From Anaerolineae bacterium (GTDB lineage Bacteria; Chloroflexota; Anaerolineae; Aggregatilineales; Phototrophicaceae), in assembly GCA_025454495.1 (NCBI GenBank), contig JALOOI010000003.1, positions 1 to 64,000 of the forward strand: a stretch of 64,000 bases of DNA. Reading direction: 5' to 3'. Below the pieces are notes generated by a model. It had not been told where the DNA came from. It saw nothing but the letters and a program-made list of their open reading frames with translations, and searched no databases. A program made the translations under genes and the position numbers. Of this stretch, positions 16,377 to 26,816 are shown in pieces. How positions within the stretch are numbered: position 1 is the first letter of the stretch; every line of letters begins with the position of its first letter.

Positions 16377-18605
16377 TCAGCCGTTTAGCTGGGCCAGCAG
16401 CTTTTTATAATCTTCGATGCGGTCGGGCTTGAGCGAGATAATTTGCCGGATGGTGGCCGCGGCTTCTTTGTTCAGCCCGGCATCCAGTTGCAGTTCGCCC
16501 AGGGCATCCAGTTGTTCGATCGCTTCTTTGACCATGTTCAGCTTGCGGTAAATTTGCGCCAGGCGAGAGCGCAGGGCGGTATCGGCCGGCATATTGCGGA
16601 CGAGTTCTTCCAGCATGGAGCGAATTTTGTTCACCATGCCTTTGCGGGCATAAATCCCCAGCAGCGTATCCAGCCGTTTGACGGCCTCCACCTGGTTGCC
16701 CTGAGTGTAGTAAATATCGGTGAGGCCGCGCAGGGCTTTTTCGTCGCTGCTGTCCAGTTCCAGGATTTCTTCAAAGATTTTTTGCGCCTGGCGCGTGTTC
16801 AGCCGCATCTGGTTCAATTCTGCCAGGCTGTGCTTAATTTGCACCAGCTTGCTGGACGGCGCGTTGATGCGCCGGGCCATGCGCTCGGCTGCGGCGAAGG
16901 TCTGGTTGCAGCGGTCAAAATCGCCGAGCTGCTGGTAAGTGTTCGCCAGGTCGATATACTGGTCGAGCGCTTCTTCCAGCCGGTTTTCGCCTTCCAGAAG
17001 CTGGATCAGGTTCATGCGGACTTCCACATCCAGCGGAGCCATATCCAGCACGGTGCCCAGGATGGCGGCGGCGCGGTCATTTTCTTCACGCACCAGGTAG
17101 GCTTTGGCCACCATGTTGTATTTGTTGATGGCCTGGCGGATGCGCCCTTCTTTCATCAGAATTTCGGCCATGCGGACATGCACAGGCAGGTAGAAGGGCG
17201 ATTTTTCGATGGCCCGCTGGCATTCGTCCATGGCCAGAGTATACAGCCCCTGGCGGATGTAGCGATCAATGAACGACACCGATTCCGCCAGCGAGTCGCT
17301 GCCTTTGGCGGCCCAGGTTTCGCTGAGGGTTTTATCATCGCTGCCGCTGGTTTCCATCATCTGGCGGCGGGTTTCGGCCACGCGGTTTTTCCAGTCGCGG
17401 CCGCTCAGCAGGTTGAGCGAGCGCTCATTGCTGGCGCTCAGCTTTTCGGCGCTGCTGCCCTCCATGATCGTCGTCAGGCGATCATAGAATTCCATCATTT
17501 CGTTCACTTCCAGCGTATCGGTGGTCTGGCTGGCATCCACCGCCTGCAAACAGCGCACCAGGTATTTGGCGGCATTCCGCTGATCGCCCAGTTTAAAATA
17601 GGACTGCCCCAGCGCGTGCAGGGCCCCGGCGGACAGGCGCGGATGGGTGATGGCCTCGCCCAGGTGCCGCACCGCCTCCGGCCACTGCTCCGTCAGCACC
17701 AGCAGCCCGCCCAGGTTCATCTTCAGCGACGGGTGTTTAAGGCCATCTTTATCCGCCTGGCGGTAGGCATCGGCGGCCTGTTTGTGCAGGCTCTGCCGCT
17801 GGTATTCCATGCCCTGCATGGCCGGGATGATGAAATCGCTGAGGCCGCTTTCCACCACAAAGGCGGCCAGCATCTCCAGCGCTTCGGTGAGGGCTTCGCC
17901 CAGGGGCCCCAGCGGATCATCGCTGGCGGCGGGCGGGGCGGCGGCTTCGGGCGCGGGCAGTTCGCCGGTTTTGGGGCGGCCGCCTTCACGGAGGCCGGGC
18001 GGCGGCTTGATGTCGTCGCTGCCGGTTTTGAGCGCCTGGAGCATATTCAGCGCATCAATGTTGTTTTTATCCAGCCGCAGCGCCCGGTCCACCACCTGCA
18101 TGGCTTTATCGACCTGCTTCAGCCGCCAGAAATTGTAGGCCAGGGTTAAGTATTCGTAGACGGCCTTTTTGTTGTAGCCCAGGCGCTCGTAGGCCTGCGC
18201 CAGGCGGGCATGAACCCCCACCAGCCCCGGCGTAAGCTGCGTGGCACGTTCCCAGTTGCCGATGGCCTTATCCCAGTCTTTCTGGGCCAGGTAGGCTTCG
18301 GCCACTTTCACGTACTGCTGTGCCGCTTCTTTAAGCTGCCCCATGCGCTCCAGCGCATCGGCGATGCCCTCCAGCGGCACCGGGTCTTCCGGGGCCAGGC
18401 TGCTGGCTTTGCGATAGGCCCGCAGCGCCCGGTCAAGCTGGCTGCTGTTCAACAGCACCATGGCCAGGTTCAGGTGGGCATCCGGGTCTTCTGGCTGCAC
18501 CTGAATGGCCCGTGAATATGACTCGATGGCATCGCGCCAGCGTTCTTCAAAAGCGGCGTTGTGCCCATCTTCCATGAATTTTTGAAAATCTCTGGCATCC
18601 GGCAT
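16377..18605 (-). CDS. Large tetratricopeptide-repeat protein
   Basis: A 742-residue soluble protein made largely of TPR helices. Clear repeats lie in about 14-200 and 450-740, such as AHLNLAMVLLNSSQLDRALRA... style pairs with conserved G/A/P positions. A low-complexity proline/alanine stretch at about 205-235 separates the two TPR blocks. There is no signal peptide or catalytic motif. TPR arrays bind partner proteins; the partner is unknown. The gene lies 23 bases after argF and 56 bases before cdaA. An 8-bp inverted repeat (CGGCCGGC) in the latter gap might be an attenuator. Confidence 0.8.
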   Translation of the reverse strand: MPDARDFQKFMEDGHNAAFEERWRDAIESYSRAIQVQPEDPDAHLNLAMVLLNSSQLDRALRAYRKASSLAPEDPVPLEGIADALERMGQLKEAAQQYVKVAEAYLAQKDWDKAIGNWERATQLTPGLVGVHARLAQAYERLGYNKKAVYEYLTLAYNFWRLKQVDKAMQVVDRALRLDKNNIDALNMLQALKTGSDDIKPPPGLREGGRPKTGELPAPEAAAPPAASDDPLGPLGEALTEALEMLAAFVVESGLSDFIIPAMQGMEYQRQSLHKQAADAYRQADKDGLKHPSLKMNLGGLLVLTEQWPEAVRHLGEAITHPRLSAGALHALGQSYFKLGDQRNAAKYLVRCLQAVDASQTTDTLEVNEMMEFYDRLTTIMEGSSAEKLSASNERSLNLLSGRDWKNRVAETRRQMMETSGSDDKTLSETWAAKGSDSLAESVSFIDRYIRQGLYTLAMDECQRAIEKSPFYLPVHVRMAEILMKEGRIRQAINKYNMVAKAYLVREENDRAAAILGTVLDMAPLDVEVRMNLIQLLEGENRLEEALDQYIDLANTYQQLGDFDRCNQTFAAAERMARRINAPSSKLVQIKHSLAELNQMRLNTRQAQKIFEEILELDSSDEKALRGLTDIYYTQGNQVEAVKRLDTLLGIYARKGMVNKIRSMLEELVRNMPADTALRSRLAQIYRKLNMVKEAIEQLDALGELQLDAGLNKEAAATIRQIISLKPDRIEDYKKLLAQLNG

Positions 18606-22518: not shown

Positions 22519-22527
22519 ATTATAGCA
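22519..22527 (-). promoter_or_regulatory. Extended -10 promoter of polA
   Basis: On the minus strand TGC-TATAAT, with the expected start near 22512, 33 bases before the polA ATG at 22479. No clear -35. Confidence 0.6.
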
Positions 22528-22551: not shown

Positions 22552-24642
22552 TCAGGATTGGCCGGCGAAATAGAGAAAATCCTGAATTTCTTCCGGGCGC
22601 AGCGCCCGCCCCGGTGCCAGCAGCAGGTAAGACGGGGCCCATAGCTGCGCGGCATCCTGTTCCGGGTGCTGCCGGCACACCAGGTCGGCGGAGCGCTCCA
22701 TGAGCTGCTGGAGGCGCTCCCTGGGCGATTTCAGCGCGGGCACATCGGCAAAGAGGGTGATGTGATCTTCCTCCACGCTGAGGCTGTAAAGCTGCCAGCC
22801 CAGGCGGGTTAGCCGGTCGTTCAGCCCGTGGTACACGGCCTGGCGGGTGCCGGCGGCGAGGGTAAAATGGGGGTCACGCACCAGCCACAGGAAGGTCAGC
22901 GGTTCCAGCGGGCCTGTTTCGGCCGGTTCGTCCGGCATGGCCGGGGCGGTTTCGGCGGCGGGCACGGCTTCGGCGGCCGGGGCTGCGGCTTCCTGCACCG
23001 CGGCCAGCGCGTCGGCCAGCCGGCGGCCCTGGCGGCGGATGCGGTGAAGCTGCTGCGTGCCGGAGAAGATCATCGACAGGGCAAAACCGCCATCAACCCC
23101 GCGGGAATAGAGCATGTAATCCTGCCCGCTGCCCTGGAGGGTGATGAAGCGGATGCGCCCCTGCGCCGGAGCGGCTTCCCAGTCACCGGCGATGGTCTGG
23201 CGAATTTCTTCAATGTCTTCCAGCGGCAGCGCCCCGGCATAGGCGATGATCTGGCTGTCGCGGGCCAGCACGCAGGCTTCGGCGGTCAGTTCCAGCGACA
23301 CCTGGGTGAGCGTGAGCGCCAGGCGGGCCACGGCTTCATCTTCCGGGGCCATCTGGATGTACTGCGGGCGGGGCGGCGCGGCAGCCACCCCGCCGGACGT
23401 GCCGGCCGTCAGCTCCAGGGCTTCACTGTCGGGCAGTTCCGGCAGCAGGTCAATTTCCGGCGGGGCGGGTTCCGGCGTGATGGGCAGCAGCACCGGCGGC
23501 ACGGCCGGCGGCGGGGCATCATCTGCGCCGGCGGTGGACGGGTGCGAGTGGGGCAGCGGCTGGCTGCGTTCCGTTTCCAGCGCGGCGGCATCTGCCGGCA
23601 GGAACTGCCCCGGCGAGGGCGTGGTGGCCGGGGCAGTGTATTCCAGCGGCTGCGAAGGTGCCAGGGCAAAATCGTCCGGCAAAAAATCTGGCTCGCGGAC
23701 GTAGCGCTCGCTCTCCTCCACCCACGAGGGCAGCGGCTGCAGGCGCTGGCCGCCGGCCAACATCTGATCCTGAATGCGGGACAAAAATTCATCCAGCGAG
23801 AAGCTGTCCAGCGGGGTGGAATCGTCGGTGGCATTGGCCAGGATGACGGCCGCCGGGATCGCCCCGGAGTCTTCGGCCTCGTCCGGCGTGGCGGCGGGCG
23901 GCGGTGCGATGGGCTGCGTGGCCTCATCGTTAAATGCCGTCATCATCCGGCTGATGGCGTTGCTTTCCAGCATCCCCTGGCGCAGGTCGCGCAGGGTGGC
24001 ACTCTCCTCAAAGGCGGGCAGCGGTGGTTCTTCGGCGGCCAGCTTCTGGAAGATGCTCACGGCGGCATCGGCATCCTCGAAAATTTCTTCCGGCGGGGGC
24101 ACATCCCCCGGCACCTGCAGGCGGGTGCTGCCCGCGGTATCCTGGAGAATCACTTCCACCGGGGGCGTATCATCGGCCGGGGAAGGCGCGGGCTGCGGGC
24201 GCACGGCGGCAGCGCGGCCGGTGGGTTCATCATCGCTGACGGCCCGCATCCGGGCGGTACCGGGCTGTGCTTCGTACACACGCTGCCGGGCTTCTTTCAG
24301 CAGCGGGGCCAGTTTGCGGGCCGTCCAGCTATAATCAATGATGCCATGCAGCCGCAGCTCAATATACAGCCGCCGGCTGAGGTCATTATCTGGCAGCGCG
24401 ATGATGGCCAGATCGGGCTGGATGTCGTAGACCTGGGCGACCACGGCCGCCGTGCGCTGGTCGGTGAGGTTAATGTCCAGCAGCAGCACATCCTGGGGCT
24501 GCGCCCGCAGATGGTTGAGCAGATGCTCGACCGAGGAGAGCAGGGTAACGCGGAAGGCACCGGGCTGCTCCAGCGCCTGGGCAATTTGCATGGCATAAGC
24601 CACATTTTGCGTGAGAACCAGCACCCGTGTGACGATGAACAC
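22552..24642 (-). CDS. Receiver-like / roadblock-like / IS200-transposase-like fusion protein
   Basis: A 696-residue protein I cannot match to a named family. Residues 5-125 look like a receiver with D56 (LLLDINL) but without the N-terminal acidic pair and the usual Lys. Residues 130-430 are proline/alanine/acid-rich and probably disordered. Residues 435-550 resemble a roadblock/LC7 domain (ACVLARDSQIIAYAG). Residues 580-694 resemble the Y1 transposase fold of IS200/IS605: VEEDHITLFADVP matches the strand with the HUH motif but reads H-I-T, and LWAPSYLLLAPG near 668-679 matches the C-terminal block. The catalytic Tyr position appears to be F689. The start is GTG with GGGAG seven bases upstream. 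Function unknown; a scaffold or nucleic-acid sensor is possible. Confidence 0.72.
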   Translation of the reverse strand: MFIVTRVLVLTQNVAYAMQIAQALEQPGAFRVTLLSSVEHLLNHLRAQPQDVLLLDINLTDQRTAAVVAQVYDIQPDLAIIALPDNDLSRRLYIELRLHGIIDYSWTARKLAPLLKEARQRVYEAQPGTARMRAVSDDEPTGRAAAVRPQPAPSPADDTPPVEVILQDTAGSTRLQVPGDVPPPEEIFEDADAAVSIFQKLAAEEPPLPAFEESATLRDLRQGMLESNAISRMMTAFNDEATQPIAPPPAATPDEAEDSGAIPAAVILANATDDSTPLDSFSLDEFLSRIQDQMLAGGQRLQPLPSWVEESERYVREPDFLPDDFALAPSQPLEYTAPATTPSPGQFLPADAAALETERSQPLPHSHPSTAGADDAPPPAVPPVLLPITPEPAPPEIDLLPELPDSEALELTAGTSGGVAAAPPRPQYIQMAPEDEAVARLALTLTQVSLELTAEACVLARDSQIIAYAGALPLEDIEEIRQTIAGDWEAAPAQGRIRFITLQGSGQDYMLYSRGVDGGFALSMIFSGTQQLHRIRRQGRRLADALAAVQEAAAPAAEAVPAAETAPAMPDEPAETGPLEPLTFLWLVRDPHFTLAAGTRQAVYHGLNDRLTRLGWQLYSLSVEEDHITLFADVPALKSPRERLQQLMERSADLVCRQHPEQDAAQLWAPSYLLLAPGRALRPEEIQDFLYFAGQS

Positions 24643-24741
24643 CCTGTTACTCCCGGTGGCAGCGACCCTGTTTCAAATATGCTGCTTCCATTGTACCCAT
24701 CTTCCACCGGCGTGGCACACCTTTTCTGCGGGGTTTTGCCC

Positions 24742-24770
24742 GGCAGGCACAGCGGGGGGCTGCGCCTGCC
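24742..24770 (-). terminator. Hairpin terminator after the SH3b-CARDB lipoprotein gene
   Basis: A 12-bp stem with one mismatch (24742-24753 with 24759-24770, GGCAGGCACAGC against GCTGCGCCTGCC) closes a 5-base loop, immediately after the lipoprotein stop on the minus strand. The T-rich tail is poor, so efficiency is uncertain. Confidence 0.5.
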
Positions 24771-24777
24771 GAACAGC

Positions 24778-25935
24778 TTAATTGCTCACGGTGACGGTGA
24801 GATCGCCACGGTTGTTCACGTCGCTGACTTCCGCCACGCGGCTGTCAGGATCGACATCCACGCGCAGGTTAAAGGTGCCGGCCGTCGTCCAGGTAAGGTC
24901 GCGGGTGAGGGAGATACTCTGGCCACGATCCAGCCCGGAGACATTAAAGGTGTCGGTCAGGGTGCCATTGTTGCTCAGGTTGACGGTGAACGCGCCGGCC
25001 GGCCCCTGGCCCATATTGGTGATATTGATGGCATAGGTGATGGTGACGCTGCTCCCGTTCAGGCGCACGGCCTGGCTGCCGCCGATGCTCGTCACCAGCA
25101 GATCCGGCAGGGCCGGTACCGGAGTGACGGTGGGCGTGGGGGTGCGTACCGGCGTGAGCGTGGGCGGGGTGGTGGCGCTGGCGATGGGCGTGGCAGTGGC
25201 CAGCGAAATGACCGGCACGCCGGCGCAGTTGCCGGAGAGCGTGGTAAAGCCGGCGCTCACCCAGCCATTTTGGTTGTTGAAGCTGATTTGCCACCACGAA
25301 TTATCGCCCAGCCGCCCCACCACCGGGGCCAGCGTGCCGCCGGGGAGCACGGTGATGACGCTGCTGGAGGTGTTCGGCTGGCTGCGGAAGTTCAAATTGA
25401 GGTTCGTCAGGGCGCGGCATACGCCATCGTTGGGAATATTGATGCTGCCGCTGCTGCCGCTGCCCCCGCCGCCGGGGTTAGGGTTAGGATTGGGGTTGGG
25501 GCTGGTCGGGGCGCTGACGATGGTCAGGCGCAGCGCGGCCGGGTCGCTGGCGATATCGCCCCGGAAGGCGATCACCTGCATATTCACTTCGCCGGCCGCG
25601 CGGGGGGTGTAATCCAGCGCGGCGGCGTAGCGGGTTTCGCCGGCCGGGTTGGCCGGGGCCACCCGCTTGACCACCGCGCCATTCACCACGAGCTGTACCC
25701 CGGTCACGCCGCTGCTGTCGGTGGCGGCCACGCTGACCAGAATTTGCTCATTCACGGTAAATTCATCGCCATCCTGGGGCGAAATAATGGTAATCAGTGG
25801 TTTGCCGGCCGCCGGCAGCGGGCTGCTGGTGGGCAGCAGCGGCTCGGCTGTCTCCGGCACATTCCCCAGGTTACACGCGGCCAGCGCCAGCGGCAGCAGG
25901 GCCAGGGCCAGCCATAAGCGCAATTTGTCAGTCAT
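24778..25935 (-). CDS. Lipoprotein with Ig-like, SH3b and CARDB domains
   Basis: A 385-residue exported lipoprotein. The signal peptide ends in the lipobox LALAACNLG, so Cys near 21 is lipidated. An Ig-like domain (TIISPQDGDEFTVNEQI) spans about 45-135, then an Asn-Pro repeat and Gly/Ser linker, an SH3b domain (LNLNFRSQPNTSSSVITVL) about 170-235, a threonine/proline linker, and a C-terminal CARDB-type adhesion domain (PDLLVTSIG). It probably binds cell-envelope polymers. An upstream in-frame start at 26037 is rejected: ATG 25935 has GGAGAGAG upstream and starts the signal peptide. Confidence 0.86.
   Translation of the reverse strand: MTDKLRLWLALALLPLALAACNLGNVPETAEPLLPTSSPLPAAGKPLITIISPQDGDEFTVNEQILVSVAATDSSGVTGVQLVVNGAVVKRVAPANPAGETRYAAALDYTPRAAGEVNMQVIAFRGDIASDPAALRLTIVSAPTSPNPNPNPNPGGGGSGSSGSINIPNDGVCRALTNLNLNFRSQPNTSSSVITVLPGGTLAPVVGRLGDNSWWQISFNNQNGWVSAGFTTLSGNCAGVPVISLATATPIASATTPPTLTPVRTPTPTVTPVPALPDLLVTSIGGSQAVRLNGSSVTITYAINITNMGQGPAGAFTVNLSNNGTLTDTFNVSGLDRGQSISLTRDLTWTTAGTFNLRVDVDPDSRVAEVSDVNNRGDLTVTVSN
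25474..25501 (+). repeat. Telomere-like G-rich tract with G-quadruplex potential
   Basis: The plus strand reads GGGGTTAGGGTTAGG followed by ATTGGGGTTGGGG: four G-runs of 3-4 with short loops (one loop of 8). It encodes, on the minus strand, the Asn-Pro repeat linker of the lipoprotein. It is on the template strand for that gene. Confidence 0.6.
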
Positions 25936-26094: not shown

Positions 26095-26730
26095 TTAGCT
26101 GATGGGTTCCTTGTAGATGACGTAGCGACCCATGTCATCGCCCTTGCCGATGCAGGTATCCATATCGACCTTGAATTCGCTGCCGCCGGAGACCCAGCGC
26201 AGCCCTTCCTGGAGCAGCCCCTGCCCCACGAAGCACACCGCGCGGTCGGTCTTGCGATTCCAGCACATGGGGCAGCGTTCCAGGGTGTAGATGATTTTGT
26301 CGCTGCCTTCGTCGAAGACGTTGGAGATCTGGTCGGAGAACTGCGAGAAGATATTGGCCATGGCAGGCACGCCGATCTTGAGCTTGGCGTTCAGCGGCAG
26401 CACTTTAAACGCCAGGTCGCCCACCCCGGCCAGCGCGCCGAAGGCCCGCAGCCCCTGGGCAAAGGTGGCGCGGCCGGCCCGCAGCGCCAGCCCGCGCCCG
26501 CCGCGCGGCCCGTACATTTCATCCAGCGCCACGCACAGCGCCGTATAATGGGCAAAGTCAAATTCTTTCTCCAGGTTGTCCTGGGGAAAGTTATCAATCA
26601 GATGCGACAGCCCCGCCAGGTTCAGGATGGCTTTGAGACCGTTATCGCCCATCACTTCCTGCATCGCTTCCAGGGTGATGCGGGCGAATTTGTTGGGGTA
26701 GTAATAGCCTGCGAGTTTAATTTCCGGCAT
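26095..26730 (-). CDS. V4R-domain (4-vinyl reductase-like) protein
   Basis: A 211-residue protein. The C-terminal half (about 90-205) fits the V4R small-molecule-binding domain, with conserved cysteines in ERCPMCWNRK, AVCFVGQGLLQ and MDTCIGKGDDMGRYVIY. The N-terminal region (GYYYPNKFARITLEAMQEVMG) is common in stand-alone V4R proteins of Chloroflexota-like bacteria. V4R domains bind hydrophobic or tetrapyrrole-like ligands and may hold a metal through the cysteines. ATG 26730 is chosen over 26754 because GGAGG lies eight bases upstream. The ligand is unknown. Confidence 0.75.
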   Translation of the reverse strand: MPEIKLAGYYYPNKFARITLEAMQEVMGDNGLKAILNLAGLSHLIDNFPQDNLEKEFDFAHYTALCVALDEMYGPRGGRGLALRAGRATFAQGLRAFGALAGVGDLAFKVLPLNAKLKIGVPAMANIFSQFSDQISNVFDEGSDKIIYTLERCPMCWNRKTDRAVCFVGQGLLQEGLRWVSGGSEFKVDMDTCIGKGDDMGRYVIYKEPIS

Positions 26731-26816
26731 GTGCCTGGCCTCCAGTTGGTCCATCAGCGCTGGCAGTGTCGCTGACGGGTAGCAGTAAGCTAATCAAACC
26801 TGATGACAATGTGTGT

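Follow-up and report, generated by a model that had tools for sequence, protein, structure and literature searches.

The receiver-roadblock-Y1 gene described here lies at positions 22552-24642 on the minus strand of the window, by which we mean the whole stretch of 64,000 nucleotides that was analysed. It is an open reading frame of 696 amino acids with a GTG start. The full-length family alignment (A4) and the pLDDT profile of the predicted model divide the product into a degenerate receiver (residues 1-125; 24268-24642), a proline-rich and acidic linker that is mostly predicted to be disordered (residues 126-430; 23353-24267), an MglB-type roadblock/LC7 domain (residues 431-552; 22987-23352) and, after a short second linker, a transposase-like Y1 domain of the IS200/IS605 TnpA type (residues 578-696; 22555-22911), all on the minus strand. 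The receiver, roadblock and Y1 parts of the full-length model are confident; the linker mostly is not, except for short helices at conserved motifs. A sequence-only reading of this DNA had proposed such a three-domain fusion, and our analysis agrees and adds the strand, which that reading did not give. All the residues it named are present: D56, VEEDHITLF at 623-631 (with H627 and T629), LWAPSYLLL at 667-675 and F689.

In the order of transcription, the genes around the locus encode MiaB, a V4R-like protein (26095-26754, minus strand), a lipoprotein with SH3 and CARDB domains, the receiver-roadblock-Y1 protein, PolA, a member of the OTC family and a 742 amino acid TPR protein (16377-18605, minus strand). 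A 1029 amino acid open frame (22828-25917, plus strand) runs antisense across the receiver-roadblock-Y1 and lipoprotein genes and is apparently an artefact of the high GC content. A PADLOC search was empty and gave no hint of a defence protein.

The match of the receiver to PF00072 is weak and falls below the cut-off (E = 1.2e-4); the predicted model of this part reaches a pLDDT of 91-97. Homologous receivers are present in 73 of 80 family ORFs. The phospho-acceptor aspartate is D56 in the window protein and an aspartate in 64 of the 73 homologues. In the window protein the acidic pair is replaced by T-Q and the lysine by tyrosine; the lysine is found in 27 of the 73. The pLDDT of the following linker is about 35-50 over most of its length, and three conserved motifs stand out within it. 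The first (residues 198-228; 23959-24051, minus strand; consensus F.rLAaEEPPmP.fEesgTV.DL) has eight positions conserved at 90% or more in alignment A4 (L201, A202, E205, P206, P207, P209, T216 and D219), with short predicted helices nearby. The second (residues 262-296; 23755-23859, minus strand; pA..iL..alD.stp...fsl) coincides with helices at 263-271 and 283-296 that are modelled with intermediate confidence. The third (residues 303-322; 23677-23736, minus strand; PLPSW....EPDFL) is recognized from the family alignment.

No match to the roadblock family PF03259 was found at E-values up to 10 for the window protein, or among the families tabulated for 45 homologues; the domain was identified by its fold. 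Foldseek places it with MglB (6hjm, E = 5.8e-5), and VIA-align superimposes 115 residues on Myxococcus MglB at 3.1 A (Z 12.6).

For the Y1 domain, sequence and structure prediction agree. PF01797 matches the last 121 amino acids above the gathering score (E = 7.6e-7) and is matched independently by 41 of 45 homologues. A profile of 44 homologous Y1 domains (A1), compared with the PDB, finds TnpA structures with E-values from 5.4e-16 (2f4f) to 3.2e-8; the next match has an E-value of 0.31. In an AlphaFold2 model of residues 431-696 (mean pLDDT 91.5), the folds matched most closely are those of TnpA and MglB, and VIA-align gives the predicted Y1 domain a Z of 13.5 to 2ec2 and of 13.4 to 2fyx over 118 residues. 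With a pTM of 0.62, this model leaves it uncertain how the roadblock and Y1 domains lie relative to each other. The Y1 fold that had been suggested from the letters is thus upheld; we also looked for the contrary outcomes, a prediction lacking this fold and profiles matching another family, and neither occurred.

What the Y1 domain has lost is its active site. We aligned 76 Y1 domains of the family, many of them related to one another, with 27 ordinary Chloroflexota TnpAs, many of them likewise related. Both histidines of the HUH motif are kept in none of the 76 and in 25 of the 27. The former HUH site of the window protein reads D-H-I-T-L (residues 626-630; 22753-22767, minus strand), compared to D-H-V-H-L in ordinary TnpAs. 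In the column of the catalytic tyrosine (26 of 27 TnpAs), the family has phenylalanine in 58 members, tyrosine in 16 and leucine in 2; the window protein has F689 there (22576-22578, minus strand) and A693 at the Tyr+4 position, where TnpA has glutamine. Judged from these residues, the Y1 domain is catalytically dead throughout the family and would be unable to cut, as the sequence-only reading had supposed for the window protein. That reading also took H627 for the retained half of the HUH motif and raised the question of whether it persists among homologues. It does not: the column has tyrosine in 49 of the 76 and histidine in only 6, and we reject H627 as a remnant of the motif.

How old is this arrangement? 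In a tree of Y1 domains, the 76 family members fall on one side of a branch and the 27 TnpAs on the other (support 100/99); the inner forks are loose, because 126 columns had to serve 103 rows. In a PolA tree of 65 rows, a single clade of 48 rows (SH-aLRT 97) within the Anaerolineae (Chloroflexota) contains the Y1-bearing loci. A homologue in family f17, which is linked to polA and has no Y1 domain, is the sister of this clade, and polA-linked homologues in f19 and f15 also have no Y1 domain. The homologue searches covered Chloroflexota, together with one profile scan of genome contigs (A3), in which the matched contigs were titled Chloroflexi, Anaerolineae or Aggregatilineales. The Y1 part is under purifying selection (dN/dS 0.03-0.21 in 12 homologue pairs). 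Repeated copies and a varying location, the signs of a mobile element, were not found: PF01797 has a single match in the genome, and the order with polA is conserved. A brief look at possible element ends turned up few inverted repeats near the gene. The simplest reading is one old domestication, with a single gain, later losses and vertical inheritance, and the earlier suggestion of a domesticated transposase fold is well supported by the separate clade, the selection and the conserved gene order. Two receiver ORFs elsewhere may be mentioned here. One, of 145 amino acids, lies directly upstream of polA in a genome without the receiver-roadblock-Y1 gene (G011; L191, 4977-5412) and is perhaps a shortened remnant; the other, which is receiver-like, closely precedes polA in an outgroup genome (f71; L209, 5426-6020).

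We are interested in the possible partners of this protein. It had been pointed out that no small GTPase, the usual partner of a roadblock domain, is adjacent. This is correct; the genome does hold plain roadblock genes and two MglA-like GTPases (C227 and C223), none of them next to the receiver-roadblock-Y1 gene, and an unlinked MglA-like GTPase gene co-occurs with it across the class. Among the rows of the PolA tree, the gene and the GTPase are both present in 29 and both absent in 20, with the GTPase by itself in 7 and the gene by itself in 1. The corresponding numbers for the TPR protein, scored partly by search and partly from the neighbourhood, are 29, 22, 5 and 1. Fisher values for these counts take no account of ancestry. 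When ancestry is considered by means of independent pairs on the same tree, just 4 are usable (about 3 in the same direction and 1 in the opposite; p-value 0.625), too few to show that the co-occurrence goes beyond common descent. One genus (g17; genomes G017 and G033) has the receiver-roadblock-Y1 gene with no GTPase or TPR gene detected, and families f2, f11 and f18 have both of these genes with no receiver-roadblock-Y1 gene detected.

The V4R-like protein, encoded two genes upstream, provides another connection. It shares 74-92% identity with the corresponding proteins of ten receiver-roadblock-Y1 loci, nearly all from the window's own family, and 53% and 44% with V4R proteins near MglA-like genes in L220 and L219, respectively. 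These loci are examples of a cluster common to several families (L217-L222), which encodes a DUF4388 protein, an MglA-like GTPase, an alpha/beta hydrolase, a hexapeptide-repeat protein and, in some, V4R. The window's genome also carries a receiver-roadblock paralogue of 299 amino acids beside a CheW-like gene (L183, 979-1878). Two more specific proposals were set aside. The resemblance of the TPR protein to SgmX is that of TPR proteins in general. Output through a PilT-dependent pilus is unsupported, since a search found PilT in hardly any genome, whether or not the receiver-roadblock-Y1 gene is present.

These findings lead us to favor, by a modest degree of belief, a receiver/MglB-like homodimeric scaffold of an MglA-type switch, in which the dead Y1 fold would serve for dimerisation or docking. 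A Y1 transposase domain would have been joined to a receiver-roadblock protein in the lineage ancestral to several Anaerolineae families, would have lost its nuclease and would then have been inherited vertically. The MglB-like roadblock pair would bind an MglA-type GTPase, a partnership suggested by the co-occurrence and by the V4R neighbour common to both; the degenerate receiver and the three linker motifs would either receive input from other proteins or bind to them. The Y1 fold, dimeric in the ancestral enzymes, would provide another module for dimerisation or partner docking, one that cuts no DNA. The homodimer itself is proposed by analogy with MglB and TnpA, and the putative links to the TPR and V4R proteins are associations, not contacts. 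It is tempting, though more speculative, to hypothesize a switch of class-wide extent, in which a Ras-like GTPase works with a fused receiver and MglB, TPR and V4R proteins are partners, and the nuclease-less Y1 fold is the docking or dimerisation module.

Could the Y1 domain, no longer able to cut, still bind structured single-stranded DNA or RNA and so link signalling to replication or repair, perhaps via PolA? Since polA, which encodes a DNA enzyme, is the commonest neighbour, its position could hint at a role with DNA. It lies directly downstream on the same strand (within 400 nucleotides) in 41 of the 62 loci that extend 3 kb or more downstream, in several families, and within 5 kb in 46 of the 62; it is on the opposite strand in none. 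(In draft genomes the receiver-roadblock-Y1 gene is often near a contig end, e.g., L034 and L042.) R694, moreover, is 92% conserved, and in family f9 the Y1 domain is close to neutral in charge and in most members still has the tyrosine. Against this, the net charge of the family's Y1 domains averages -5.5 (range -14 to 2), compared to +4.4 (range -1 to 11) in TnpA, and both an arginine present in 93% of TnpAs and the glycine of the LKG helix are lost. In families f7 and f8 the gene is present but no polA lies within reach, genomes without the gene still have polA, and in the window the gap before polA contains a TATAAT hexamer (22519-22524, minus strand), so polA may have its own promoter. 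We therefore consider nucleic-acid binding unlikely. The sequence-only reading had left the choice between a signalling and a nucleic-acid-binding module; the difference in mean charge favors the former and disfavors the latter.

It is equally improbable, in our estimate, that the Y1 domain is a mere folded end-piece or dimeriser with no partner of its own, leaving the work to the receiver, linker and roadblock. Such a role would fit a domain in which core positions hold (W668 is invariant, W616 is 97% and Y672 93% conserved) while polar and catalytic positions vary, and which is missing from the f17 and f19 homologues. However, in 11 of the 12 pairs its dN/dS is lower than the value for the remaining protein, and R679, like R694, shows family-specific conservation at a position that is non-catalytic in TnpA. 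The notion of a recently captured or decaying IS200 transposase that ran into a host gene, for which the loss of HUH with only the fold left might speak, is hardly credible, being already contradicted by 76 homologues in one clade under purifying selection and by the single genomic match in a conserved gene order.

On the preferred scaffold reading, the Anaerolineae would have a previously undescribed MglA-type GTPase module that includes TPR and V4R proteins; PilT was not detected in most of the genomes concerned. It also offers a case of a transposase fold kept across much of a bacterial class after the early loss of its cutting residues. Because the family is a single clade that spans several families and is under selection, the role of the fold after losing cutting is directly testable. 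We found no description of a receiver-roadblock-Y1 protein in the open-access literature. A survey of TnpA-Y1 proteins described HuH and the tyrosine as conserved in 12 subclasses and discarded unexpectedly long proteins (PMC6006769); with these choices a lineage reusing the fold would have been missed.

Compared to the TnpAs of IS200/IS605 elements (2f4f, 2ec2, 2fyx, 2xm3, 2a6m), the family has the common fold throughout the domain, up to and including the final helix, with the same element order, the LW and SY core positions and the acidic residue before the HUH site. In contrast to them, it has no HUH, phenylalanine for tyrosine and no Tyr+4 glutamine, is mostly acidic, and forms the C-terminal module of a larger protein encoded once, at a conserved chromosomal position. 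In TnpAREP/RAYT proteins, too, hosts have kept the Y1 fold outside insertion sequences (PMC6006769, PMC8266576). However, those proteins keep HuH and the tyrosine and process REP hairpins, while their motif (HuH plus Y- - -NP) is absent from our family alignment. The GTPase-activating protein MglB (6hjm, 6h5b, 3t12) has the same roadblock fold, and an MglA-like GTPase co-occurs with the family; here the roadblock is embedded between the receiver with its linker and the Y1 domain and has no PF03259 match. Fusions of Response_reg with Robl_LC7 are known in other prokaryotes (PMC4316618). They and the paralogue in L183 likewise have the receiver before the roadblock, although they have no Y1 domain and the linker of the paralogue is short. 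Finally, in the system of Myxococcus RomR (PMC12719032) MglB is a separate protein and there is no transposase fold, but RomR resembles the window protein in combining a receiver with a long, disordered, proline-rich linker, and it acts in the MglA/MglB system.
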